Below are positions 25,347 through 63,067 of a DNA stretch of 64,000 bases, one piece after another; position 1 is the first letter of the stretch, and every line of letters begins with the position of its first letter. The position numbers were made by a program, and so were the translations under genes. Below the pieces are notes generated by a model. The model did no database searches, was not told the origin of the DNA, and saw only the letters and a list, made by a program, of their open reading frames with translations. This DNA is from Rothia halotolerans (GTDB lineage Bacteria; Actinomycetota; Actinomycetes; Actinomycetales; Micrococcaceae), in NCBI RefSeq assembly GCF_004136635.1, contig NZ_NOIU01000001.1:186001-250000 (forward strand), read 5' to 3'.

Positions 25347-26102
25347 CTACCTCCTCTCCCGGTCGGGGGTGCCCACCGGGGACCAGCCGCGCCGCGGGGA
25401 GGCCGAGCTGCGGCGCCCCGCCCCGCGCGAGCGGTAGACGATGTAGGGACGGAACAGGTAGTGGACCGGGGCCGTGAAGGCGTGGACCAGGCGGGTGAAG
25501 GGCCAGAGCATGAACAGCAGCAGCCCCACCAGCACGTGCAGGTGGAAGGAGAGCGGCGCCGCGGCCATCGCCCCGATGTCCGGCTGGAGGATGAAGAGCG
25601 AGCGGAACCACGGGGAGACGGTCTCCCGGTAGTCGCCGCCGGCCTCGCCCTCGGTGACCGAGATCAGCGTCGTCGCCAGGCCCAGCACGATCGCCGAGAC
25701 CAGCACGAGGTACATGACCTTGTCGTTCTTCGTCGTCGCCATGAACACCGGGCCCGTGCGGCGCCGGCGGTAGATCATCAGCGCCAGCCCGCCCAGCGTC
25801 GCGACGCCGGCCACCGAGCCCAGTCCCAGGGCCATCACGTGGTACATCTCCTGGGAGACCCCCATCGCCTGCGTCCACGTCTTGGGGATGAGCAGGCCCA
25901 CGATGTGCCCCACCAGCACCACCAGGATGCCGATGTGGAAGACCGGGGAGGCGATCCGCAGGATCCTGGACTCGTAGAGCTGGGAGGAGCGGGTGGTCCA
26001 GCCGAACTGGTCGTAGCGGTACCTCCAGACGGTGCCGCCGACCAGGATGACCAGCGTGACGTAGGGAAGCACTCCCCAGAGGAGGAGGTCGAGGACGTTC
26101 AT
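25347..26102 (-). CDS. narI: Respiratory nitrate reductase gamma subunit
   Basis: Membrane cytochrome b subunit (251 aa) that takes electrons from menaquinol. There are five predicted helices. Histidines suitable for the two b haems lie in SPVFHIGILVVLVGHIVG and in the last helix region LSFHLHVLVG and FTRLVHAF. The start overlaps the narJ stop (ATGA). The C-terminal 25 residues are Arg/Ser-rich and cytoplasmic. Confidence 0.95.
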   Translation of the reverse strand: MNVLDLLLWGVLPYVTLVILVGGTVWRYRYDQFGWTTRSSQLYESRILRIASPVFHIGILVVLVGHIVGLLIPKTWTQAMGVSQEMYHVMALGLGSVAGVATLGGLALMIYRRRRTGPVFMATTKNDKVMYLVLVSAIVLGLATTLISVTEGEAGGDYRETVSPWFRSLFILQPDIGAMAAAPLSFHLHVLVGLLLFMLWPFTRLVHAFTAPVHYLFRPYIVYRSRGAGRRSSASPRRGWSPVGTPDRERR

Positions 26103-26836
26103 GATGCGGCTCCCGCGGCGTTCTTGTCGATCACTGGCAGCAGGCGGGGGTCGTCGTGGCCCAGTCCCACCGATTCCTGGGGCGGCCCGGCGCTCACCAT
26201 CGCCTGGACCTCCTGCTGGGTCCTCGGCGAGACGCCCGGCAGGGAGCCGCACACCAGCTCGACGAGCGCCTCGTGCGGCAGCCCGCCCTCGCGCAGGGCC
26301 AGACGCAGCAGCTCGAGGCTGGGCCGGTACTCCTGCAGCAGGGCCCTGCCCCGCCCCATGTCCACGGCGGCGGCGAACTCCAGGACCATCGGCAGGTAGT
26401 CCGGCAGCTCCCCGCGCAGGTGGGTCAGCACCCCGGACTCCCGGTAGGCCCGCTTGAAGCGGCCCAGCGCCTCCCCGCGCCGCCGGGTGTCCCCGTCGGT
26501 CCAGTAGGAGAGGTTGAGGCTGTGCCGCCGGGAGAGGTCGAACTCCTGGACGTACGCGCCCTGGACCTCCGCCAGCCCGTCCCCGGTCAGCCAGGAGGCG
26601 GTGCGCTCCACCGCCTCCGCCAGGCCGGGGTGCTCCGACGCGGCCGCCGCCTCGCGCACCGCCGGCAGGTCCCGGAGCAGGTCCTCGTCCGGGTACCCGA
26701 GCAGCACGGCGACGAGCTGGTAGACCAGCGGGTCCGTGGGCCCGCCGGGGCCCGGGTCGAGGGGGTCCCGGCCGCGGCGGCCGGCCTCCTCCGCGGACTG
26801 CTGGCGGCCCAGGATCTTGGAGAGCAGACCCGCCAT
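26099..26836 (-). CDS. narJ: Nitrate reductase assembly chaperone
   Basis: Cytosolic TorD/NarJ-type chaperone (245 aa) that helps insert the Mo cofactor into NarG and attach NarGH to NarI. It contains LLGYPDEDLL, AYVQEFDLSRRHSLNLSYW (the strongly conserved helix), and LPDYLPMVLEFAA. The ATG overlaps the narH stop by one base (TGATG). It is longer than E. coli NarJ at the N-terminus by a charged stretch. Confidence 0.94.
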   Translation of the reverse strand: MAGLLSKILGRQQSAEEAGRRGRDPLDPGPGGPTDPLVYQLVAVLLGYPDEDLLRDLPAVREAAAASEHPGLAEAVERTASWLTGDGLAEVQGAYVQEFDLSRRHSLNLSYWTDGDTRRRGEALGRFKRAYRESGVLTHLRGELPDYLPMVLEFAAAVDMGRGRALLQEYRPSLELLRLALREGGLPHEALVELVCGSLPGVSPRTQQEVQAMVSAGPPQESVGLGHDDPRLLPVIDKNAAGAAS

Positions 26837-28500
26837 CACCGCTCGCCTCCCTCGCGCTGGTCGGGGAAGAGGCCATCGGGCCTGCCGTTGCCGTCCCAGT
26901 TGAGCAGGTTCACGCGACCGGCCATGGCCTCGTCGTCGGCTGGGCGCTCCCCGCACTGGCGCTCGCGCAGCGCCTGGAAGTTCTCGACCGCGACCGGCAC
27001 CGGCCGCCCGCTGGTCTCCCCGAAGGCGCCCTGGTACATGCCCGGCCCGCCCTCGAAGTCCAGGGAGCAGCCCATCTCCTCGAGGTTGTGGGCGTCCTCC
27101 ATGTGGGCCTTGGGGATGACGTAGCGGTCCTGGTACTTGGCGATGGCCATCATCCGGTACATCTCATACATCTCGGAGCCCGTCATGCCCACCTCCTCCG
27201 CGATCTCGGAGCGGGCCTCACGGCCCAGCGAGATGTCCCGCATGTAGGAGCGCATGGCGGCGAGCTTCCTCAGCACGCCGGTGATGAGCTCGGTGTCCCC
27301 GGCCGTGAACAGCTCCGCCAGGTACTCCACCGGGATGCGCAGGGCGTCGATCGCGCCGAAGAGGTTCCCCTCGTCCTCCGCGTCGTGCCCCTGGTCCCTG
27401 AGGAGGTCCACGATGGGCGAGAGCGGGGGCACGTACCAGACCATCGGCATGGTCCGGTACTCGGGGTGCAGCGGCAGGGCCACCCGCCACTCCTTGGCCA
27501 TCTTGTAGACAGGCGAGCGGCGGGCCGCCTCCAGCCATGACTCCTCGATGCCGGCCTTCCGGGCCTCGCGGATGACCTCGGGGTCGTTCGGGTCCAGCAT
27601 GAGGTCCAACTGCGCCTCGTAGAGCTCCTGCTCGGGCGCCGAGGCGGCCTCGGTGACCCGGTCCGCGTCGTAGAGGAAGATGCCGATGTAGCGCATCCGC
27701 CCCACGCAGGTCTCCGCGCAGACCGTCGGGATCCCGGCCTCGATCCTCGGGTAGCAGAAGGTGCACTTCTCGGCCTTGCCCGACTTGTGGTTGAAGTAGA
27801 TCTTCTTGTAGGGGCAGCCGGTGATGCACTGCCGCCAGCCGCGGCAGCGGTCCTGGTCCACCAGCACGACGCCGTCCTCCGTGCGCTTGTAGATCGCCCC
27901 GGAGGGGCAGGAGGCCATGCAGGAGGGGTTCAGGCAGTGCTCGCAGATGCGCGGGAGGTAGAACATGAACGTCTTCTCGAACTCGAAGGCGATCCGCTCC
28001 TCGGACTCCTTCCGCACCTTCTCCACCATGGGGTCCAGGTGCCCGTTCTCGGTGACGCCGCCGAGGTCGTCGTCCCAGTTGGCGCTCCACTCGATCTTGG
28101 TGTCCTCGCCGGTGATCAGCGACTTCGGCTTGGCCACCGGGAAGTCGTCGCCCAGGGGCGCGTTGACCAACGAGGCGTAGTCGTAGGTCCACGGCTCGTA
28201 GTAGTCCTTGAGCTCGGGCTGGACGGGGCTGGCGAAGATCCCGAAGAGCTTCTGCAGCCGGTTCCCGGACTTGAGCCGGAGCCGACCGCGCTTGTTCAGC
28301 TCCCAGCCGCCGCGCCACCGCTCCTGGTCCTCGTAGCGGCGTGGATAGCCCTGGCCGGGGCGTGTCTCGACGTTGTTGAACCACACGTACTCGGTGCCCG
28401 CCCGGTTGGTCCAGGCCTGCTTGCAGGTGACGGAGCAGGTGTGGCACCCGATGCATTTGTCGAGCGTCATCACCATGCTGACTTGCGCCATGACTCGCAT
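26836..28500 (-). CDS. narH: Respiratory nitrate reductase beta subunit
   Basis: Iron-sulfur electron-transfer subunit (554 aa). The first cluster motif uses Cys16, Cys19, Cys22 and Cys26 (CIGCHTCSVTC). Others are CEHCLNPSCMASCP, CRGWRQCITGCP (the Trp-containing motif typical of the 3Fe-4S centre) and CTFCYPRIEAG with downstream CAETCVGRMRYIG. The ATG at 28500 overlaps the narG stop (TAATG) and has AGGAGG 10 bases upstream, better placed than the second ATG three codons on. Confidence 0.97.
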   Translation of the reverse strand: MRVMAQVSMVMTLDKCIGCHTCSVTCKQAWTNRAGTEYVWFNNVETRPGQGYPRRYEDQERWRGGWELNKRGRLRLKSGNRLQKLFGIFASPVQPELKDYYEPWTYDYASLVNAPLGDDFPVAKPKSLITGEDTKIEWSANWDDDLGGVTENGHLDPMVEKVRKESEERIAFEFEKTFMFYLPRICEHCLNPSCMASCPSGAIYKRTEDGVVLVDQDRCRGWRQCITGCPYKKIYFNHKSGKAEKCTFCYPRIEAGIPTVCAETCVGRMRYIGIFLYDADRVTEAASAPEQELYEAQLDLMLDPNDPEVIREARKAGIEESWLEAARRSPVYKMAKEWRVALPLHPEYRTMPMVWYVPPLSPIVDLLRDQGHDAEDEGNLFGAIDALRIPVEYLAELFTAGDTELITGVLRKLAAMRSYMRDISLGREARSEIAEEVGMTGSEMYEMYRMMAIAKYQDRYVIPKAHMEDAHNLEEMGCSLDFEGGPGMYQGAFGETSGRPVPVAVENFQALRERQCGERPADDEAMAGRVNLLNWDGNGRPDGLFPDQREGGER

Positions 28501-31500
28501 TAGTAGTTGACCTCCTGGCTGCGACGGCGGATGAGGGAGACGATGTCCCGTTGGTTTCCTGTGGGGCCCAGATAGTTGAACGCGTAGGCCTGGTGCGCGT
28601 ACCCGCCGATCATGTGGGTGGGTTTGACGAGGATGCGGGTGACGGAGTTGTGGATGCCGCCCCGCTTCCCGGTGGTCTCCGAGCGGGGGACGTCGATGGT
28701 CCGCTCCTGGGCGTGGTGGACGTAGATGACGCCCTCGGGCATCCGGTGCGAGACCACCGCGCGGCCGACGAAGACCCCGTTGGTGTTCACGCACTCGATC
28801 CAGTCGTTGTCCCTCACCTGGATCTTCTCCGCGTCCTGGGGGCTCATCCACGCCGTGGTCCCGCCCCGGGAGAGGGAGAGCATGAAGAGGTTGTCCTGGT
28901 ACTCGGAGTGGATCGACCACTTGTTGTGCGGGGTGAGGTAGCGGACCGCGACGGAGAGCTCCCCCCGCTCGCCGAGCTTGGGCTCGCCGAACAGGGCATT
29001 CATGTCCAGCGGGGGCCGGTAGATCGGGAGGTTCTCCCCCATCTCGTGCATCCAGTCGTGGTCCAGGAAGAAGTGCATCCGCCCGGAGAGGGTGTGGAAG
29101 GGCTTGAGCCGCTCGATGTTGACGGTGAAGGGCGCGTAGCGCCGGCCTCCGGTCTCGGACCCCGACCACTCGGGCGAGGTGATCACCGGAACCGGCCCCG
29201 CCTGGGTCTGCGGGAAGGTGATGCGCTTCTCCTCGCTGCCCTCGGCGTAATCCGCGAGGCGGACCCCGGTGCGCTCCTCGAGGCTCTTGAAGCTCTGCAC
29301 CGCCAGCTCGCCGTTGGTGGCCCCGGAGAAGCTCAGGATCGTCTCGGCGATCTTGACGTCGGTGTCCATCGCGGGGCGTCCCGCGCCCTTCCCTGAGCTC
29401 ATCACGCCGTGCTCGGAAGCCAGCCGGTCCACCTGGGAGGTGACGTCGAAGGTCACGTTCTTGGTGGTCAGCCCCAGGCTCGAGGCGAGCGGCCCGACGG
29501 TGTTGTACATCTGCGAGACGGCCGGATAGTCGCGCTCGACGGTCTTGAAGATCGGCATGTTGCGCCCCGGGACCCCGGTGATCCCGGTGTTCTTCCAGTC
29601 GGGGGCGTGCCCGCCCGGCTGGGCGAGCTGGCCCGGGGTGTCGTGCTGCAGGGGCACGGCGACGACGTCGCGCCGGGTGCCCAGGTGCCGCGCGGCCTGC
29701 CGGGAGAACTCCTCGGCGAGGTCCTTGAACATCTGGTGGTCCGTGCGGGCCTCCCAGGGCGGGTCGATGGCCGGGGTGAAGGCGTGCACGTAGGGGTGCA
29801 TGTCGGTCGAGGAGAGGTCGTGCTTCTCGTACCAGGTCGCGGCCGGCAGGACGACGTCGGAGAGCAGCGTCGAGGAGGTCATCCGGAAGTCGGCGGAGAC
29901 CAGCAGGTCCAGCTTCCCCTCGGGGGCCTCCTCGTGCCAGGCGACGTCGCTGGGCCGGGAGTCGGAGTGCTCCTCGCCCTGGACGCTGTGGTGCGTGCCC
30001 AGCAGGTGCTTGAGGAAGTACTCCTCGCCCTTGGCGGAGGATCCCAGGAGGTTGGAGCGCCAGAGCATGAGGGTGCGCGGCCAGTTCTCCTCCGCGTCGG
30101 GATCCTCGACCGAGAGGTCCAGGTCGCCCGAGTTCAGGCGGCCCGCCACGTAGGCGGCCTCGTCCTCGGCCTCCCCCGCCGCCACGGCCTCCCCGGCGCG
30201 GTCGGCGAGGTCCAGCGAGTTCTCCCGGAACTGGGGGTAGAACGGCATCCATCCCATCCGGGTGGACTTGGCGACGACGTCGGCGGTGTGCATCCCGCGC
30301 AGGTCGCCGCGGCCCAGGGGGGACTGCAGGGAGTCGGTCGAGTGCCCGTCCGTGCGCCACTGGTCGGTGTGCATGTACCAGAAGCCGGTGCCGATCATGG
30401 TGCGGGGCGGGCGGCTCCAGTCCAGCGCGTTGGCCACGGTGGCCCAGCCGGTGATGGGCCGGGCCTTCTCCTGCCCGACGTAGTGCGCCCAGCCGCCGCC
30501 GTTGCGGCCCTGGCAGCCGGTGAGCATGAGCAGCGCCAGGATCGCGCGGTAGGTGGTGTCCCCGTGGTACCACTGGCAGATCCCGGCCCCGAGGATGATC
30601 ATCGAGCGGCCCCTGGACTCCTCGGAGTTCCTGGCGAACTCGCGGGCCACCCGGATCACCGCCTCGGCGGGGACGGAGGTGATCTCCTCCTGCCAGGCGG
30701 GGGTGTACTGGACGGAGGCGTCGTCGTACCCCTGGGCCCAGGTGCCGGGCAGGCCCTCACGGCCCACCCCGTACTGGGCGAGCATGACGTCCAGGACCGT
30801 GGTGACCTCGTGCCCCGCGACCGTGGTGGTGGGGACGCCGCGCGAGACGGTCCTGCCCGAGCCGTCCGGCCGGTCGAAGGCGGCCATCTGCAGCTCCGTG
30901 GCCTCCGCCCCCAGCCCCGCCGCGTCCCGGACGGAGAGGGCCGGGACGACCCCCTCGAGGTCCAGGTTCCAGCGGCCGGCGTCCTCGTCGTTGTACCTGA
31001 AGCCCATGGAGCCGTTGGGCACCACGGCCTCGCCCGTCTCCCTGTTCAGCAGGACGGTCTTGAAGGAGGCGTCGGCGGCGTCGCGGTGCTCCGGCAGGTC
31101 CGCGGCGGTGAGGAACTTGCCCACCTTGGCGCGGCCCTGCTCGTCCCGGTCGATGCGGATCAGGAAGGGCAGGTCGGTGTAGGTGCCCACGTAGTCCTCG
31201 AAGAAGGGGACCCGGCGGTCGACGAAGTTCTCCTTCAGCACTACGTGCCCCATCGCCATGGCGAGCGCAGCGTCGGTCCCCGCCTGGGCGGGCAGCCACT
31301 CGTCGGCGAACTTGGTGTTGTCCGCGTAGTCCGGGCTCACCGAGACGACCTTGGTGCCGCGGTAGCGGACCTCCGCGAGCCAGTGGGCGTCCGGCGTGCG
31401 GGTCACGGGGATGTTGGAGCCCCACATCATCAGGTAGCTGGCGTCCCACCAGTCCCCCGACTCCGGGACGTCCGTCTGGTCGCCGAAGACCTGCGGCGAG

Positions 31501-32219
31501 GCGACGGGGAGGTCGGCGTACCAGTCGTAGAAGGAGGTCATCACCCCGCCGATCAGCTCGATGTAGCGGGCGCCCGCGGCGTGCGAGACCATCGACATGG
31601 CGGGGATCGGGGAGAAGCCGATGTTGCGGTCCGGGCCGTGTTCCCTGATCGTGTGGATCTGGGACGCAGCGATGAGCTCGAGGGCCTCCTCCCAGCTGGA
31701 GCGCACCAGCCCGCCCTTGCCCCGGGCCTGCTGGTACCGGCGGCGCCGCTCCGGGTCCTGGGTGATGGCAGCGAAGGCCTCCACCGGGTCGCCGTGCTCC
31801 GCCTTCGCCTCCCGGTACATCTCCAGGAGCACGCCGCGGACGTAGGGGTACTTCACCCGGGTGGGCGAGTAGGTGTACCAGGAGAAGGCGGCGCCGCGGG
31901 GGCAGCCCCTGGGCTCGTACTCGGGGCGGTCGGGGCCGACCGAGGGGTAGTCGGTCTCCTGGGCCTCCCAGGTGATGATCCCGTCCTTGACGTAGACCTT
32001 CCAGGAGCAGGAGCCGGTGCAGTTCACGCCGTGCGTGGAACGCACCACCTTATCGTGGCTCCAGCGGTCCCTGTAAAATACGTCACCCTGGCGCCCGCCC
32101 TCCAGGAATTCGGCTCGACCGTCCTCGGAGAGTTCGGCGCGGGAAAAGAATCTGCCGAATTTGACGAGATTCCGGAAAAGCGGTCCGTCGATGTCTGGGG
32201 TCTTCGTCGTCTCCTCCAT
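28500..32219 (-). CDS. narG: Respiratory nitrate reductase alpha subunit
   Basis: Catalytic Mo-bisMGD subunit, 1239 aa, full length. The N-terminal FS0 cluster ligands His63, Cys67 and Cys71 lie in HGVNCTGSCSW, with a further Cys in EPRGCPRGAAF. The SFYDWYADLP stretch contains the position of the Mo-binding Asp known in E. coli NarG. The C-terminal GGIHNSVTRI and THMIGGYAHQ motifs bind the cofactor. There is no twin-arginine signal, as expected for the cytoplasm-facing type. No Shine-Dalgarno is present; TAGCCT ends 6 bases before the ATG, suggesting a leaderless mRNA. The product needs Moco, yet the neighbouring Moco genes are damaged. Confidence 0.98.
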   Translation of the reverse strand: MEETTKTPDIDGPLFRNLVKFGRFFSRAELSEDGRAEFLEGGRQGDVFYRDRWSHDKVVRSTHGVNCTGSCSWKVYVKDGIITWEAQETDYPSVGPDRPEYEPRGCPRGAAFSWYTYSPTRVKYPYVRGVLLEMYREAKAEHGDPVEAFAAITQDPERRRRYQQARGKGGLVRSSWEEALELIAASQIHTIREHGPDRNIGFSPIPAMSMVSHAAGARYIELIGGVMTSFYDWYADLPVASPQVFGDQTDVPESGDWWDASYLMMWGSNIPVTRTPDAHWLAEVRYRGTKVVSVSPDYADNTKFADEWLPAQAGTDAALAMAMGHVVLKENFVDRRVPFFEDYVGTYTDLPFLIRIDRDEQGRAKVGKFLTAADLPEHRDAADASFKTVLLNRETGEAVVPNGSMGFRYNDEDAGRWNLDLEGVVPALSVRDAAGLGAEATELQMAAFDRPDGSGRTVSRGVPTTTVAGHEVTTVLDVMLAQYGVGREGLPGTWAQGYDDASVQYTPAWQEEITSVPAEAVIRVAREFARNSEESRGRSMIILGAGICQWYHGDTTYRAILALLMLTGCQGRNGGGWAHYVGQEKARPITGWATVANALDWSRPPRTMIGTGFWYMHTDQWRTDGHSTDSLQSPLGRGDLRGMHTADVVAKSTRMGWMPFYPQFRENSLDLADRAGEAVAAGEAEDEAAYVAGRLNSGDLDLSVEDPDAEENWPRTLMLWRSNLLGSSAKGEEYFLKHLLGTHHSVQGEEHSDSRPSDVAWHEEAPEGKLDLLVSADFRMTSSTLLSDVVLPAATWYEKHDLSSTDMHPYVHAFTPAIDPPWEARTDHQMFKDLAEEFSRQAARHLGTRRDVVAVPLQHDTPGQLAQPGGHAPDWKNTGITGVPGRNMPIFKTVERDYPAVSQMYNTVGPLASSLGLTTKNVTFDVTSQVDRLASEHGVMSSGKGAGRPAMDTDVKIAETILSFSGATNGELAVQSFKSLEERTGVRLADYAEGSEEKRITFPQTQAGPVPVITSPEWSGSETGGRRYAPFTVNIERLKPFHTLSGRMHFFLDHDWMHEMGENLPIYRPPLDMNALFGEPKLGERGELSVAVRYLTPHNKWSIHSEYQDNLFMLSLSRGGTTAWMSPQDAEKIQVRDNDWIECVNTNGVFVGRAVVSHRMPEGVIYVHHAQERTIDVPRSETTGKRGGIHNSVTRILVKPTHMIGGYAHQAYAFNYLGPTGNQRDIVSLIRRRSQEVNY

Positions 32220-32225
32220 GAGACG

Positions 32226-32231
32226 AGGCTA
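32226..32231 (-). promoter_or_regulatory. Candidate narG -10 element
   Basis: TAGCCT lies 6 bases before the narG ATG, the distance expected if transcription starts at the A of the start codon. It directly follows the shared motif at 32233-32260, so a protein bound there would overlap the promoter. Confidence 0.4.
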
Positions 32232-32232
32232 G

Positions 32233-32260
32233 CTTAAAACTTGCCTGTAAAATACCGAAT
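32233..32260 (-). promoter_or_regulatory. Motif shared with the hmp promoter, likely NsrR-type operator
   Basis: On the plus strand the 28 bases begin CTTAAAACTTGC and end AATACCGAAT. The hmp upstream region (62438-62465) begins CTTAAAACTAGC and ends AATACCAATT. About 21 of 28 positions agree, in otherwise unrelated, GC-rich surroundings. An 11-1-11 imperfect inverted repeat, as in known NsrR sites, can be drawn through both. It lies at -14 to -41 from the narG start. Confidence 0.6.
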
Positions 32261-35307: not shown

Positions 35308-35525
35308 GGCTGCGCTCCTTCCGGTTCCGTCCGGGACGGCGGGAGGACGCGAGCGGCGCGCGCACGACGCCGGCCCGCGGGCCGGGGATGCGGCGCGTCA
35401 TGTGCTCCTCCTCGAGGGGATTCGTGCGACCTGCCCACCAGTCATTATGTCATCCTCGATGCAAATTTACCGTAGGGTGGGGAGGACCAGCCCGACGCCA
35501 TGTCGAAGCACCATCGGGAGGTCAT
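35308..35525. promoter_or_regulatory. Divergent promoter region of the two Moco arms
   Basis: This 218-bp gap separates moeA (minus) from the moaA-moaD hybrid (plus). It has a local AT-rich patch at 35441-35470. On the plus strand TAGGGT at 35473-35478 is a possible -10 for the moaA arm, with a poor -35. I looked for a Moco riboswitch-like fold and saw none I could support. Confidence 0.3.
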
Positions 35526-35885
35526 ATGGGGCTCCTCAAGGACAGATGGGGGCGGGTGGCCGAGGACCTGCGGCTCTCCCTCATCGACAAATGCAACCTC
35601 CGCTGCGTCTACTGCATGCCGGCGGAAGGCCTGGACTGGCTCCCCCGCCCGGAGCTGCTGACCGCCGAGGAGGCGGTCGACCCCGGGCCCGAGGGGATCA
35701 CGACGCTGGGCGGCCTGCTGACCCTGATGGGCGAGCGCCACGTCTCCGGCCGGGCCGGGAGCCTGTCCCTGGCGGAGGTCTTCGAGCGCTGCGCCTTCCT
35801 GCTCGACGGCAGGGTCGCCTCCCCCGAGGCCGAGCTGAAGGAAAGGAGCCGGCTCGATGTCATGCCCCCCTTCGCCGGCGGATAG
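35526..35885 (+). pseudogene. moaA N-terminus fused in frame to moaD C-terminus
   Basis: 119 codons. Residues 1-50 are Moa[21 protein letters not shown] then [10 protein letters not shown], the radical-SAM CxxxCxxC motif. The MoaA frame stops matching at about LLTAEEAV. The remainder, from about residue 58, matches the C-terminal two thirds of MoaD ([18 protein letters not shown] ... [11 protein letters not shown]), ending in the Gly-Gly that is thiocarboxylated. A single in-frame deletion removing most of moaA and the start of moaD explains it. The ATG has GGGAGG 4 bases upstream. The MoaA half cannot catalyse; whether the MoaD half still folds is unknown. Confidence 0.8.
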
Positions 35886-36720
35886 CCCCGGGGACGCGGT
35901 CCCCCCGCCCACGACGCCGGCCCCCGCCGGCCGTGCTGCCCGCACCGGGGCGTCCCCCGGAGCCTCCCCCGAGGGGGACGGCGAGCCGAGGCTGCACGGA
36001 CTGGTCCTCGCCGGAGGCCGCTCCTCGCGGCTGCACAGCAGCGCCCCCTTCCCCGCCCCGGACAAGCCGCTGCTCGCGGACGGCTCGGGGACGCTGCTGG
36101 AGGCGGCCCTCGGGGCGCTGCGGACGGCGGGCGTCCCGAGCCGGCGCAGCGTCGTCGTGGGACCTCCCTTCCTCCCCGTCCCGGCCGGGGCCCGGCTGGT
36201 GCGCGAGGACCCGCCGTTCACCGGACCGGCGGCGGCGATCGCAGCGGGGCTCACCGCCCTGGGGGAGGCCACCGGCGCCGACGCCGGACCCACCGGCGGA
36301 CGCGCCCCCTCCCCGGAGGCCGGTGCACCGCGCTCCCCCCGCGCATCCGGCGACGCCGCGGGAGCCCGGCCCGGCTGGGTCCTCCTGCTGGCCGCCGACA
36401 TGCCCCGCGCCCTCCCGGCCCTGCTGCGCCTGGTCGAGGCCCTCGAGGCCGCGCGCGCCGGGGATGCCGCCCCCTCCGCCCTCGTCGCGGTGGACGAGGG
36501 CGTCGAGCAGCCGCTGCTGTGCCTGCTCCGGCTCGACGCCGCCCTGGCCGCCTTCGGCCGGGGCTCGGAGGACGCGTCGGTGCGCTCCAGACTGCGGATC
36601 CTCGAACCACTTCCCGTCGCGGTGCCGTCCGGATCCAGCGCCGACGTGGACACCTGGCAGGACGCCGTCGAGCTGGGCTTCACCGGCGGCGCCTCCCTCC
36701 CGCCCGGGGAGCCGGCGTGA
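35857..36720 (+). CDS. mobA: Molybdenum cofactor guanylyltransferase-like protein
   Basis: MobA-type nucleotidyltransferase (287 aa) that would convert Mo-molybdopterin to the MGD form used by NarG. The GTP-binding start [13 protein letters not shown] is near residue 49 and is followed by [22 protein letters not shown] and LLLAADMP. A 45-residue Ala/Pro-rich N-terminal extension and an internal Gly/Pro-rich insert (about residues 138-170) are unusual. It begins inside the moaA-moaD frame (29-base overlap) with AAAGGAG upstream. Its stop overlaps the next gene (GTGA). Confidence 0.82.
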
Positions 36721-37904
36721 GGCGGCGCTGGGCCGAGGCGCGGGAGGCCCTGCACGAGGCGGCCGCGCTGCTCTCCCCGCCGCCGGCAGGCCGCGTCCCC
36801 CTGCGGGAGGCCATGGGACGGGCCCTGGCCGAGGGGACCACCGCACCCGCCCCCGTCCCGCACTTCTCCTCCTCCGCGATGGACGGCTACGCCGTGGCCG
36901 GCCCCCCGCCGTGGACCCTGCTGGAGGCGCCGGTGGAGGACTCCGAGGGCAGGAACGTGCACCGCCGCGCCCTTCCGCTGCGCCCCGGCGGCGCCCGGCC
37001 GGTCCTCACCGGCTCCCTCCTGCCGCCGGGAGCCGACGGCGTCGTCCGCTCCGAGCACGCCCTGCTCGAGGGCGGTCTCCTCCGCCCGCTCCCCGAGCAT
37101 CCCCACCGGACCGGCCGGGACATCCGGAGGGCCGGGGAGGAGCTGGCCCCGGGCGCGCTCCTCCTCGAGGCCGGAACCCGCCTCGGCCCGAGGCAGCTCG
37201 CCCTGCTGGCCTCCTGCGGCATCGACGAGGTGACGGTGCGCGAGCCGGTGGGGGTCAGCCTCGGCCGCACGGGCAACGAGGTGATCCCCGCCGGGCTGCC
37301 CGGCCCCGGCGAGGTGCGCGACGCGTTCTCCCCCGGGTTCCCGACGCTCCTGCGAGCCTGGGGCGCCCGCGTGGACCGGAACGACTGGCTCCCCGACGAC
37401 GCCGGGGCGGTCCGGCGCTGGATCGCCGGGGCCGAGGGCAGGCTCGTCGTCCTGACGGGAGGCTCCGGGTCCTCCGGGCAGGACTTCGTGCGCTCCGCGC
37501 TGGCCGACCTGGGCGCGGACCTCGTCGCCTCATCCCTCGCCGTGCGGCCCGGCCACCCGACGATCCTCGGGATCCTGCCCGGCGAGCGGATCGTCCTGGG
37601 GTTGCCCGGGAACCCGTTGGCGGCCCACACCTCGCTGTACTCCTTCGCGCCGGCGGCCTGCGCGGGACTGCTCGGCAGTCCGCTGCCGAGCACCAGCCGC
37701 GGGAGGCTCGGCGCTGCCGTCGCCCCGCTGCCCTCGGGCGAGGACCGGCTGCTGCCGGCCCGGTGGGACGGGGAGCGGGTCCTCCCCCTCTCCGGCACCC
37801 GCTCCCACATGCTCTCCGGACTGGCCGCCGCCGAGGTCCTCTGCCGCGTCGGTCCCGAGGGGGGCGTCGAAGGCCAGGAGGTCGAGCTGCTCCGGCTCGA
37901 CTGA
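36717..37904 (+). CDS. Second MoeA-like protein
   Basis: MoeA-family protein, 395 aa, starting at GTG 36717 with GGGGAG upstream and overlapping the mobA stop. It has HFSSSAMDGYAVAG near residue 48, LTGSLLPPGADGVV, LGRTGNEV (the usual TGDEL is TGNEV), LTGGSGSSGQDFV and GLPGNPLAAH. It differs clearly from moeA at 34012-35307. Genomes with two MoeA copies often have one specialised, for example for a particular enzyme or metal; no such role can be assigned here. Confidence 0.85.
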   Translation: MRRRWAEAREALHEAAALLSPPPAGRVPLREAMGRALAEGTTAPAPVPHFSSSAMDGYAVAGPPPWTLLEAPVEDSEGRNVHRRALPLRPGGARPVLTGSLLPPGADGVVRSEHALLEGGLLRPLPEHPHRTGRDIRRAGEELAPGALLLEAGTRLGPRQLALLASCGIDEVTVREPVGVSLGRTGNEVIPAGLPGPGEVRDAFSPGFPTLLRAWGARVDRNDWLPDDAGAVRRWIAGAEGRLVVLTGGSGSSGQDFVRSALADLGADLVASSLAVRPGHPTILGILPGERIVLGLPGNPLAAHTSLYSFAPAACAGLLGSPLPSTSRGRLGAAVAPLPSGEDRLLPARWDGERVLPLSGTRSHMLSGLAAAEVLCRVGPEGGVEGQEVELLRLD

Positions 37905-38076
37905 CCCGGCTCGTCTGTCCCGGGCCGGCTGACCCGCACCGGCCCCGAACGCGGCACCGGCCGGTTCCGGAGGCGGTACCGGCTGCCGCCGGGCGACTCC
38001 GGACCCCCGGGCACGGCTCCGGCCGCGGGCCCTCCCGCCGCGGACCTTCCGCCGAGGTCCCGCGGCCGCGTCGCCA

Positions 38077-38128
38077 TCCGGCGTCATCTCCCGCCGCCCG
38101 GGAGGCCTGTGACGACTTCCGGCGTCAT
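38077..38128 (+). repeat. Direct repeat upstream of the monooxygenase operon
   Basis: TCCGGCGTCAT occurs at 38077-38087 and again at 38118-38128, 41 bases apart, about four helical turns. Both lie just upstream of the candidate -35 at 38151, a typical position for activator binding. The rest of the gap 37905-38076 is GC-rich sequence with nothing recognisable. Confidence 0.45.
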
Positions 38129-38150
38129 ACGGACACATGGCGACCATTTC

Positions 38151-38179
38151 TTTCCGATCCGCTCCCGGCTCCGTAATCT
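38151..38179 (+). promoter_or_regulatory. Candidate promoter of the monooxygenase operon
   Basis: TTTCCG-N17-TAATCT. Transcription would start near 38186, after the in-frame ATG at 38137 and before the TTG at 38221, which supports the TTG start of the next gene. Confidence 0.45.
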
Positions 38180-61228: not shown

Positions 61229-62404
61229 TCAGCTCCGCGGGAGCCACTCGTCGGGGCCGAAGACCTCGTAGCGGATGGCGGTGGCCGCCACGCCGGCGTC
61301 GATCAGCTGCGACCGGACGCCCTGCATGAAGGGCAGCGGCCCGCAGAGGAAGGCGCTCGCCTCGGCGGGCACCTCCAGCAGGCCCACGTCCGCCCGGCCC
61401 CGGTAGGTGCCCTCGTCGGTCTCCTCCGTGAAGGACAGCAGCCGGCCGTTCGCCAGCGAGCGCACGCCCGCGGCCAGCTCCTCGCGCAGGGGCCAGGCGT
61501 CCCGGGAGCGCACCGCCGCGACGACCACGACCTCCCGCTCGCTCCCCCGGCGCGCCAGCTCGTCGACGAGGGAGACCACCGGCGTCAGCCCGATGCCGGC
61601 GCCGAAGAGGTACAGCGGCTCCTCTCCCCCGTCCGCCACGACGTCGAGCGTGAGGTCGCCGTAGGGGTTGGACAGCTCCACGACGTCGCCCTCCCGCAGC
61701 CGCGCGTGGATGATCGGCGTCATCTCCCCCTCCGGATCGCGCCGGACCGAGACCCGCCGCTGCCCCGGCCCGGCGGGCAGGAGGGTGAACTGCCGCGGCT
61801 GCAGCAGGCCGTCCTGCGCGCGGGCGAAGAGGGAGACGTACTGCCCGGCCAGCGCGGGCGTCATCGGGGTCTCGTCGGCCGGCTCGAAGGTGAGCACGAC
61901 GACGTCCTCCCCCGTCTCCTCCCGGCGGACGAGCCGGAAGGGCGAACGCACCTCGTCGTTGGCCTGCCGGGCGTAGAGGTCCTTCTCGAGCGAGATCAGG
62001 GCGTCGGCCATGAGCCAGTACACCTCGGTCCAGGCGTCCACGATCTCCGGCGTCGCCGCCTCGCCCAGGTCGGCGGCGATCGCGCCGAACAGGTAGCGGT
62101 AGACGGTGGGGTACTCCCCCTCATCCAGCCCGAGCGAGGCGTGCTTGTGGGCGATGCGCGAGAGCATCTTCTCCGGGTAGGCGTCCGGGTTCTCGACGAG
62201 CCACTGGGCGAAGAGGGTGATGGAGCCGGCGAGCGCCCGCGGCTGCGAGCCCTCCAGCTGGGAGGAGCGGGAGAACATCCCGTCCATCAGGTCGGGGCGC
62301 GCCTGGAACATCTCCCGGTAGAAGACGGGGGTGATGTGGGGTATCCGCTCGGCGATGACGGGAAGGGTGGCCTCGATGAGGGGACGGGACTTGGCAGACA
62401 GCAT
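61229..62404 (-). CDS. hmp: Flavohaemoglobin (nitric oxide dioxygenase)
   Basis: Hmp, 391 aa, oxidises NO to nitrate. The globin domain (1-135) has Tyr29, Gln54 and the proximal His88 (RIAHKHASLGL). The FAD domain has QPRQFTLLPAG and GQYVSLFA; the NAD domain has FGAGIGLTPVVS and FLCGPLPFMQ. The start has GGAGG upstream. An NsrR-like gene lies 189 bases upstream on the same strand, and the intervening region contains the motif shared with narG. Expression is expected to respond to NO. Confidence 0.95.
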   Translation of the reverse strand: MLSAKSRPLIEATLPVIAERIPHITPVFYREMFQARPDLMDGMFSRSSQLEGSQPRALAGSITLFAQWLVENPDAYPEKMLSRIAHKHASLGLDEGEYPTVYRYLFGAIAADLGEAATPEIVDAWTEVYWLMADALISLEKDLYARQANDEVRSPFRLVRREETGEDVVVLTFEPADETPMTPALAGQYVSLFARAQDGLLQPRQFTLLPAGPGQRRVSVRRDPEGEMTPIIHARLREGDVVELSNPYGDLTLDVVADGGEEPLYLFGAGIGLTPVVSLVDELARRGSEREVVVVAAVRSRDAWPLREELAAGVRSLANGRLLSFTEETDEGTYRGRADVGLLEVPAEASAFLCGPLPFMQGVRSQLIDAGVAATAIRYEVFGPDEWLPRS

Positions 62405-62437: not shown

Positions 62438-62465
62438 CTTAAAACTAGCATTTTGAATACCAATT
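62438..62465 (-). promoter_or_regulatory. hmp operator candidate, matching the narG motif
   Basis: Plus-strand CTTAAAACTAGC ... GAATACCAATT, 33 bases before the hmp ATG. It agrees at about 21 of 28 positions with 32233-32260. TAGTTT within it can serve as the hmp -10 with TTCAAT 18 bases further upstream, so a bound repressor would block the promoter. Confidence 0.6.
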
Positions 62466-62593: not shown

Positions 62594-63067
62594 TCAGGGA
62601 AGCTGCGGCGTGGTCTCGCCCTGGGAGACGGTGAGGCCCAGGCTGAGCATCACGGGGCCCATCTGCCGCGCGTGCGGCAGGTCCGAGACCACGATGTCGT
62701 CCAGCGCCGCGTAGAAGGCCTCCCTGGCCTTCCCCAGCGCGGCTCGCAGCCGGCACGAGGAGTCGAGCGGGCAGGCGCCGTCCGCGGCCTCGCACTCGAC
62801 CATCGGTTGGTCCCCCTCGAGCTCCCTCAGCAGGCGTCCCACGGTCTCCCGGCCGCCGGCGGGGGTGATGGCGACGCCGCCCGAGCGGCCCCGCGCGGCG
62901 TCGACGAGCCCCAGCGACCTCAGCCGCGCCACGGCCTTGGTCACGTGGTGGTACGGGGAGTCGATGGCCTCGGCGATCTGCTGGGTGGTCAGCCGGCTGC
63001 CGCTCTCGACGCCGACGAGCAGCATCATGGTCCTCAGGCTCACGTCGGAGAACGCGGTGAGACGCAC
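62594..63067 (-). CDS. nsrR: Rrf2-family regulator, probable NsrR
   Basis: 157 aa. The N-terminal winged helix (MRLTAFSDVSLRTMMLLVG, TTQQIAEAIDSPYHHVTKAV, RGRSGGVAI) and three cysteines Cys92, Cys99 and Cys105 (CX6CX5C) match NsrR, whose [4Fe-4S] cluster senses NO. The start is GTG at 63067. It lies directly upstream of hmp, the classic NsrR target. The match to NsrR rather than another Rrf2 protein rests on the Cys pattern and the hmp neighbour. Confidence 0.85.
   Translation of the reverse strand: MRLTAFSDVSLRTMMLLVGVESGSRLTTQQIAEAIDSPYHHVTKAVARLRSLGLVDAARGRSGGVAITPAGGRETVGRLLRELEGDQPMVECEAADGACPLDSSCRLRAALGKAREAFYAALDDIVVSDLPHARQMGPVMLSLGLTVSQGETTPQLP

Follow-up and report, generated by a model that had tools for sequence, protein, structure and literature searches.

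Two closely related sites, one before narG and the other before hmp, lie in a 64,000-nucleotide stretch of the Rothia halotolerans genome (hereafter the window, the whole of the DNA that was analysed), and the place of both with respect to their genes recurs in much of the genus Rothia. The most plausible explanation, to which we assign a probability of roughly two in three, is that both sites are operators for a repressor with an [Fe-S] cluster whose gene adjoins hmp; this protein, an NsrR of the Streptomyces type, would keep both genes repressed until nitric oxide (NO) releases it.

The narG-side 28-mer occupies positions 32233-32260 and reads ATTCGGTATTTTACAGGCAAGTTTTAAG in the direction of narG, which is encoded on the minus strand and has its ATG at 32219. 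The hmp-side 28-mer occupies positions 62438-62465 and reads AATTGGTATTCAAAATGCTAGTTTTAAG on the minus strand, again the coding strand, with the ATG of hmp at 62404. The two are identical at 21 of 28 positions in a gapless alignment; the pattern that they share is found at two places in the window and was never seen in 100 dinucleotide shuffles. The first-pass annotation of this DNA had reported such a paired motif, at these positions and with this degree of identity, and the observation is confirmed. Many random matches elsewhere in the genome had been set beforehand as the result that would speak against the motif; a search of the complete 3,037,640-base (3.04 Mb) genome with a 26-base pattern, at most 3 mismatches being tolerated, returned the narG and hmp sites and no others, and the reversed pattern, used as a control, matched nowhere. 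A looser pattern gave largely scattered 3-mismatch matches in 99 genomes, the useful ones, apart from the window's own, being those adjacent to nsrR in G005, G023, G042 and G057. As both sites are located in AT-rich islands of DNA that is 72% GC, a chance likeness between two AT-rich promoters might be suspected. This explanation appears most improbable in view of the shuffles and of the two matches per genome, and it is already contradicted by conservation, the narG site being kept at a fixed spacing in 25 of 25 genomes.

The genes concerned are all on the minus strand. narG (28500..32219; nitrate reductase alpha subunit; TIGR01580, 1565 bits, above cutoff) is followed by narH (26836..28503; beta subunit; TIGR01660, 742 bits, above cutoff) and by an open reading frame (25347..26876) whose C-terminal half is NarI, the gamma subunit (TIGR00351, residues 260-484), and whose N-terminal portion may be narJ. 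Upstream of narG, the same strand carries a rhodanese-like gene, a molybdopterin-binding gene, moaC and moeA. A weak NsrR-like site, AATTTGCATCGAGGATGACATAATG, with a wrong right core half, is found at 35443-35467 (minus strand), flanked by moeA and a MobA-like gene, each of which probably serves the molybdenum cofactor; it is the third best in the window by a matrix trained on hmp sites (14.9). An open reading frame of 883 amino acids at 35525-38176 matched no NCBIfam family at E 1e-10. Some 30 kb away, hmp (61229..62404; flavohemoglobin) contains globin, FAD-binding and NAD-binding domains and matches NF009805 at E 3e-78, below the cutoff of that family. Directly upstream of hmp and on the same strand is an Rrf2-family gene (62594..63067), just where the first-pass annotation had placed an NsrR-like gene, which is referred to below as nsrR.

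The product of nsrR carries an Rrf2 winged-helix domain (PF02082, E 3.6e-22), and the solved structure closest to it by sequence is that of S. coelicolor NsrR (5n07, E 1.7e-38); the best E value among the next five Rrf2-type chains is 7e-5. Asp8 and three cysteines (C92, C99 and C105) are invariant in 14 of 14 aligned sequences drawn from 29 Rothia orthologs, and the matching Asp8 and three cysteines of S. coelicolor NsrR are given as its cluster ligands in the abstract of PMC5411485. Also invariant in 14 of 14 aligned orthologs are Y39, H41 and K44 in the recognition helix and R59 in the wing; in S. coelicolor NsrR, Tyr40, His42, Lys45 and Arg60 are DNA contacts, according to passages of PMC9338935. 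Two further DNA-contact residues of the S. coelicolor protein, Thr41 and Lys5, are not matched in the window protein. The NCBIfam NsrR equivalog has a cutoff of 182 bits, and the window protein scores 69-70; since residues 1-142 of S. coelicolor NsrR score 91.6 and also fall under it, this cutoff does not exclude an NsrR of the Streptomyces type. Taken together, the window protein is supported, by its sequence, as an NsrR-like regulator of that type. An alignment of the regulator against named genomes returned 37 loci, 22 of them at 51-68% identity (20 titled Rothia, together with Kocuria rhizophila TA68 and Micrococcaceae UBA7136) and 15, all proteobacterial, at 33-39%. Counting the window's own genome, 29 of 35 Rothia genomes contain an nsrR match. 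In R. aeria (G001) this match comes in two pieces in different frames (L060), either a broken gene or a sequencing error.

The candidate operator of hmp is the 23-mer AATTGGTATTCAAAATGCTAGTT (62443..62465, minus strand), an 11-1-11 inverted repeat in which 7 of 11 dyad pairs agree. It has 8 of 8 positions of the core GYAT-N5-ATRC, which is common to the consensus printed in PMC1274295 as far as the passages available go. PMC9338935 gives the sequence of the S. coelicolor hmpA1 operator, in a passage that also describes the central 7 bases of the operator as being without direct base contacts; outside these 7 bases the operator is like the window hmp site at 13 of 16 positions. When the centre of the hmpA1 operator was masked and up to 3 mismatches were allowed, the single match in the genome was the hmp site; this match is not significant by count alone, because the reversed control gave two. 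A clear site precedes hmp in 22 of the 29 Rothia nsrR loci, 58-66 bases before the ATG in 20 of them and 83 and 108 bases before it in the other two. A candidate -10 element of the window hmp gene, TAGTTT (62442..62447, minus strand), overlaps the right arm of the operator, and TANNNT stands at the corresponding right-arm position in 21 of the 22 clear Rothia hmp sites. No clear hmp site was found in the remaining seven genomes (G001, G009, G010, G015, G019, G021 and G034), in which the gap between nsrR and hmp is 435-677 bases. R. mucilaginosa (G034) and R. aeria (G001) are both among these seven, and a matrix trained on narG sites gives p 0.01 for two of the seven long-spacer loci (L039 and L045). 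About 420 bases before hmp, the opposite strand carries a site-like sequence in L036 (TAAATTTGTGCAGGAAATACAAAAT), L039 and L041, which belong to the mucilaginosa clade.

Might another regulator, such as an ArnR-like or DevR-like sensor of NO or O2, occupy both sites, with the neighbouring Rrf2 gene taking no part? There are precedents for this in other bacteria. ArnR of Corynebacterium glutamicum, a [4Fe-4S] repressor that is released by NO and is not an Rrf2 protein, governs both narKGHJI and hmp, the very wiring proposed here for Rothia, in a species without a direct NsrR homologue (passages of PMC12343034); and in S. coelicolor narG2 is controlled by DevSR (passages of PMC4766573). Such a regulator is improbable in Rothia, however, as the hmp site is similar to an NsrR operator from the literature, the Rrf2 gene adjoins hmp at all 29 Rothia nsrR loci, and the Rrf2 protein keeps several DNA-contact residues. 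A close parallel to the NsrR reading is the NsrR regulon of S. coelicolor (hmpA1, hmpA2 and nsrR), which is like that of Rothia in the type of regulator and in the 11-1-11 operator of hmp. It differs in its members: as described in the passages available of PMC4432287, it is without narG and includes nsrR itself, whereas Rothia has a site before narG and no clear site before nsrR.

The candidate operator of narG is the 23-mer ATTCGGTATTTTACAGGCAAGTT (32238..32260, minus strand), which starts 41 bases before the ATG. Of the 35 Rothia genomes, 26 contain a strong narG match and one more, G013, a weak one, and the site is present in 25 of the 25 Rothia genomes that have both nsrR and narG matches; it starts 41-42 bases before the ATG, which was sought 40-43 bases from the operator start in each locus. 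In one of these loci (L079, from G011) a stop codon occurs 15 codons past the conserved ATG, and the protein downstream matches narG, which points to a sequencing error or a broken start. A candidate -10 element, TAGCCT, is located 6 bases before the ATG in the window (32226..32231, minus strand), and all 25 genomes have TANNNT at a distance of 6 or 7 bases upstream of the ATG, while a Shine-Dalgarno-like sequence is seen in none of them. Given this arrangement, the narG transcript is predicted to be leaderless, with the operator lying over the -35 region. Both sites lie inside candidate core promoters and are placed differently relative to the -10 element, a feature that is absent from the first-pass annotation.

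As a palindrome the narG site of the window is poor. It has 7 of 8 core positions, but only 4 of its 11 dyad pairs agree, about as many as chance would give, and dyad pairs across the 25 Rothia narG sites range from 3 to 8. Outside the central 7 bases it is like the hmpA1 operator at 10 of 16 positions. Core counts such as these are biased upward, because the sequence most like the two window sites was taken as the site in each narG and hmp locus. A simpler reading would be that hmp is the only NsrR target and that the narG element combines a core promoter (GTATTT as -35, TANNNT as -10) with the site of another factor (ATTAG/TTTTAT), its likeness to the hmp site being partly chance. We regard this as rather unlikely, but it is the alternative with the most in its favor. 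Besides the weak dyad, TTTTAT abuts the narG operator in 25 of 25 loci (L062 and L064-L087; 32259-32264 in the window) and is absent from that place before hmp (0 of 22). ATTAR was also observed 26 to 9 bases upstream of the narG operator in 23 of 25 loci, the window and L076 being without it; these narG-specific elements are perhaps the site of a nar activator. A further point comes from G031, the sole Rothia genome with narG and without nsrR, which keeps GTATTT at the same place, 36 bases before the ATG, so that part of the narG conservation may reflect a -35 element. On the other hand, the outer bases and the right half of the site are gone in G031, and an hmp-trained matrix scores its narG upstream region like shuffles (p 0.515); this joint loss of nsrR and of most of the narG site was seen in one genome. 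In R. aeria, with its frame-broken nsrR, the narG site persists and is among the weaker ones. It also speaks against a mere core promoter that the likeness between narG and hmp sites extends into the right half (RTGC, AA, TT), and that the two promoters differ in where the likely -10 element falls with respect to the site.

Sites from one promoter were also used to predict those of the other. A matrix trained on hmp sites of other genomes (the 7 long-spacer hmp loci being set aside) gives the narG site of the window 24.8 bits, a score exceeded there by the hmp site alone, and the next independent place reaches 14.9. It puts the narG site first in 24 of 25 narG loci, and when each region was compared with 200 shuffles of itself, 19 of 26 Rothia narG upstream regions had p<=0.01 and 24 of 26 had p<=0.05. 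In contrast, the control nsrR upstream regions gave 0 of 29 at p<=0.01 and 2 of 29 at 0.05, which also leaves nsrR autoregulation without a clear site in these 29 Rothia loci. narG upstream regions from other genera gave 1 of 17 at p<=0.01 and 2 of 17 at 0.05, in a set that includes L166 (a weak match, probably not narG) and omits the incomplete L165. Conversely, the matrix trained on narG sites, from which L063 was omitted, puts the hmp site first in 16 of 22 loci and gives 19 of 29 hmp upstream regions at p<=0.01 and 23 of 29 at 0.05.

Profile searches were less favorable, and they add to the case for a separate narG element. An hmp-only profile (R1) misses the narG site in the window, and it found no narG site among the best 150 candidates per genome in 35 whole genomes; with its filters off, it matched the operator in 15 of 26 narG loci, which account for 16 of its 20 matches. 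The narG-only profile (R2) gives the hmp site second place in the window (9.0 bits, E 0.22) and, among the best 150 candidates per genome, recovered the hmp site in 6 of the 22 genomes with a clear site. With its filters off, it matched the operator in 15 of 22 hmp loci and partially overlapped it in L033, the 7 long-spacer loci being omitted from this test. The first-pass annotation had proposed that a single NO-sensing repressor governs both genes. That proposal is partly supported, by the NsrR-like Rrf2 protein, by the NsrR-type 11-1-11 hmp site and by the conservation of the narG site in 25 of 25 Rothia genomes with matches to both nsrR and narG, and less well so for the window's narG site as an operator, which is a poor palindrome and is missed by the hmp-only profile.

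Beyond Rothia, 14 genomes from other genera of the family have a close nsrR, and hmp was found in 10 of the 12 loci examined. A site with the same core stands just before hmp in 9 of these 10 loci, L179 having none; the site lies elsewhere in the locus in L169 and L177, in which no hmp was found, and nsrR and hmp are about 1.1 kb apart in L178. Sites before narG are scarcer. Among nine other genera of the family that have a close nsrR and narG, G038 shows a clear site before narG in the same position, G057 (whose nsrR contains an internal stop) and G058 have weaker ones about 95 bases up, and the other six have none. Eight genomes bear narG without a close nsrR; no site was seen in the 7 whose upstream regions were examined, and G071 offers 30 bases only. 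Since narG sites are found in Rothia and seldom outside, control of narG appears to have been acquired close to the base of the genus, the sample being small.

Sites of the same kind were also observed before other genes. In six Rothia genomes one lies immediately ahead of a small Cupin_2 gene (L109:1501-1524, L148:1501-1525, and around base 1000 in L217-L219 and L225), some of these sites being nearly palindromic by eye, and this gene may be a further NsrR target. One also lies just before a class I SAM methyltransferase gene in five members of the clade without a clear hmp site (L113, L115, L116, L117 and L119, at 1501); tehB homologues are listed among NsrR targets in passages of Rodionov 2005 (PMC1274295). 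In addition, NsrR-like sites precede a flavodoxin gene in G010 and G001 (L222 and L226, around base 1000) and, in G033, a gene matching cytochrome P450, with the same start in G032 and a cupin gene nearby (L220 and L221, around base 1000).

The analysis establishes the sites, their positions and conservation and the relatedness of the regulator by sequence; binding, repression, the response to NO and the direction of control are inferred. If both sites are NsrR operators, the circuit may be pictured as follows. Without NO, an NsrR dimer would sit on both operators and keep both promoters off, covering the likely -10 element at hmp and the -35 region of the predicted leaderless promoter at narG. 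NO would destroy the cluster, and NsrR would leave the DNA. Nitrate reductase and flavohemoglobin would then be made together, so that the cycle of nitrate, nitrite and NO would have a matched sink. A compact feedback loop, as the first-pass annotation put it, is not the logic that follows: a repressor released by NO would turn narG on, and the result would be a feed-forward loop checked by Hmp as a sink rather than plain negative feedback. This is the opposite of S. coelicolor, where NO lowers nar (narG2) expression via DevSR, according to passages of PMC4766573. A bolder version, which we put forward as speculation, is that NsrR is the main switch of nitrate respiration in Rothia and reads cluster damage by NO as a sign that nitrate reduction has begun; nar would raise itself via NO, with Hmp setting the cap, and in a clade that includes R. 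mucilaginosa and R. aeria NsrR would have released hmp and would hold narG and new genes (cupin, methyltransferase and flavodoxin) instead.

NsrR control of nitrate and nitrite reductases in other bacteria is already in print. A review (PMC8139620, as far as its available passages go) names nap and nrf of E. coli as NsrR-controlled in its text, and a figure legend there has nar and nir repressed as well. Rodionov 2005 adds nirK, norB and narK-like genes to NsrR regulons, and in the passages available of that paper (PMC1274295) Gram-positive NsrR sites are reported only before hmp. The available text of PMC4255298 contains passages on NsrR and passages on Rothia that are unrelated to each other. 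E. coli, the nas genes of B. subtilis and the nir and nor genes of Neisseria resemble Rothia in placing NsrR over enzymes of nitrogen oxides, but they represent other lineages and mostly other enzymes. The literature searched, which consisted of titles and openings of abstracts and had most subscription journals outside it, yielded no account of NsrR control of narG in Rothia and no report of NsrR acting in Rothia.

Rothia is a genus known from the human mouth. Of 53 oral isolates confirmed as nitrate reducers in a study that looked for probiotic candidates, 48 belonged to Rothia (passages of PMC7522554). If NsrR indeed sets narG and hmp together, the output of nitrite and the removal of NO would be coupled. 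Such control would also represent a second solution, by an unrelated protein, to the wiring that corynebacteria build with ArnR.
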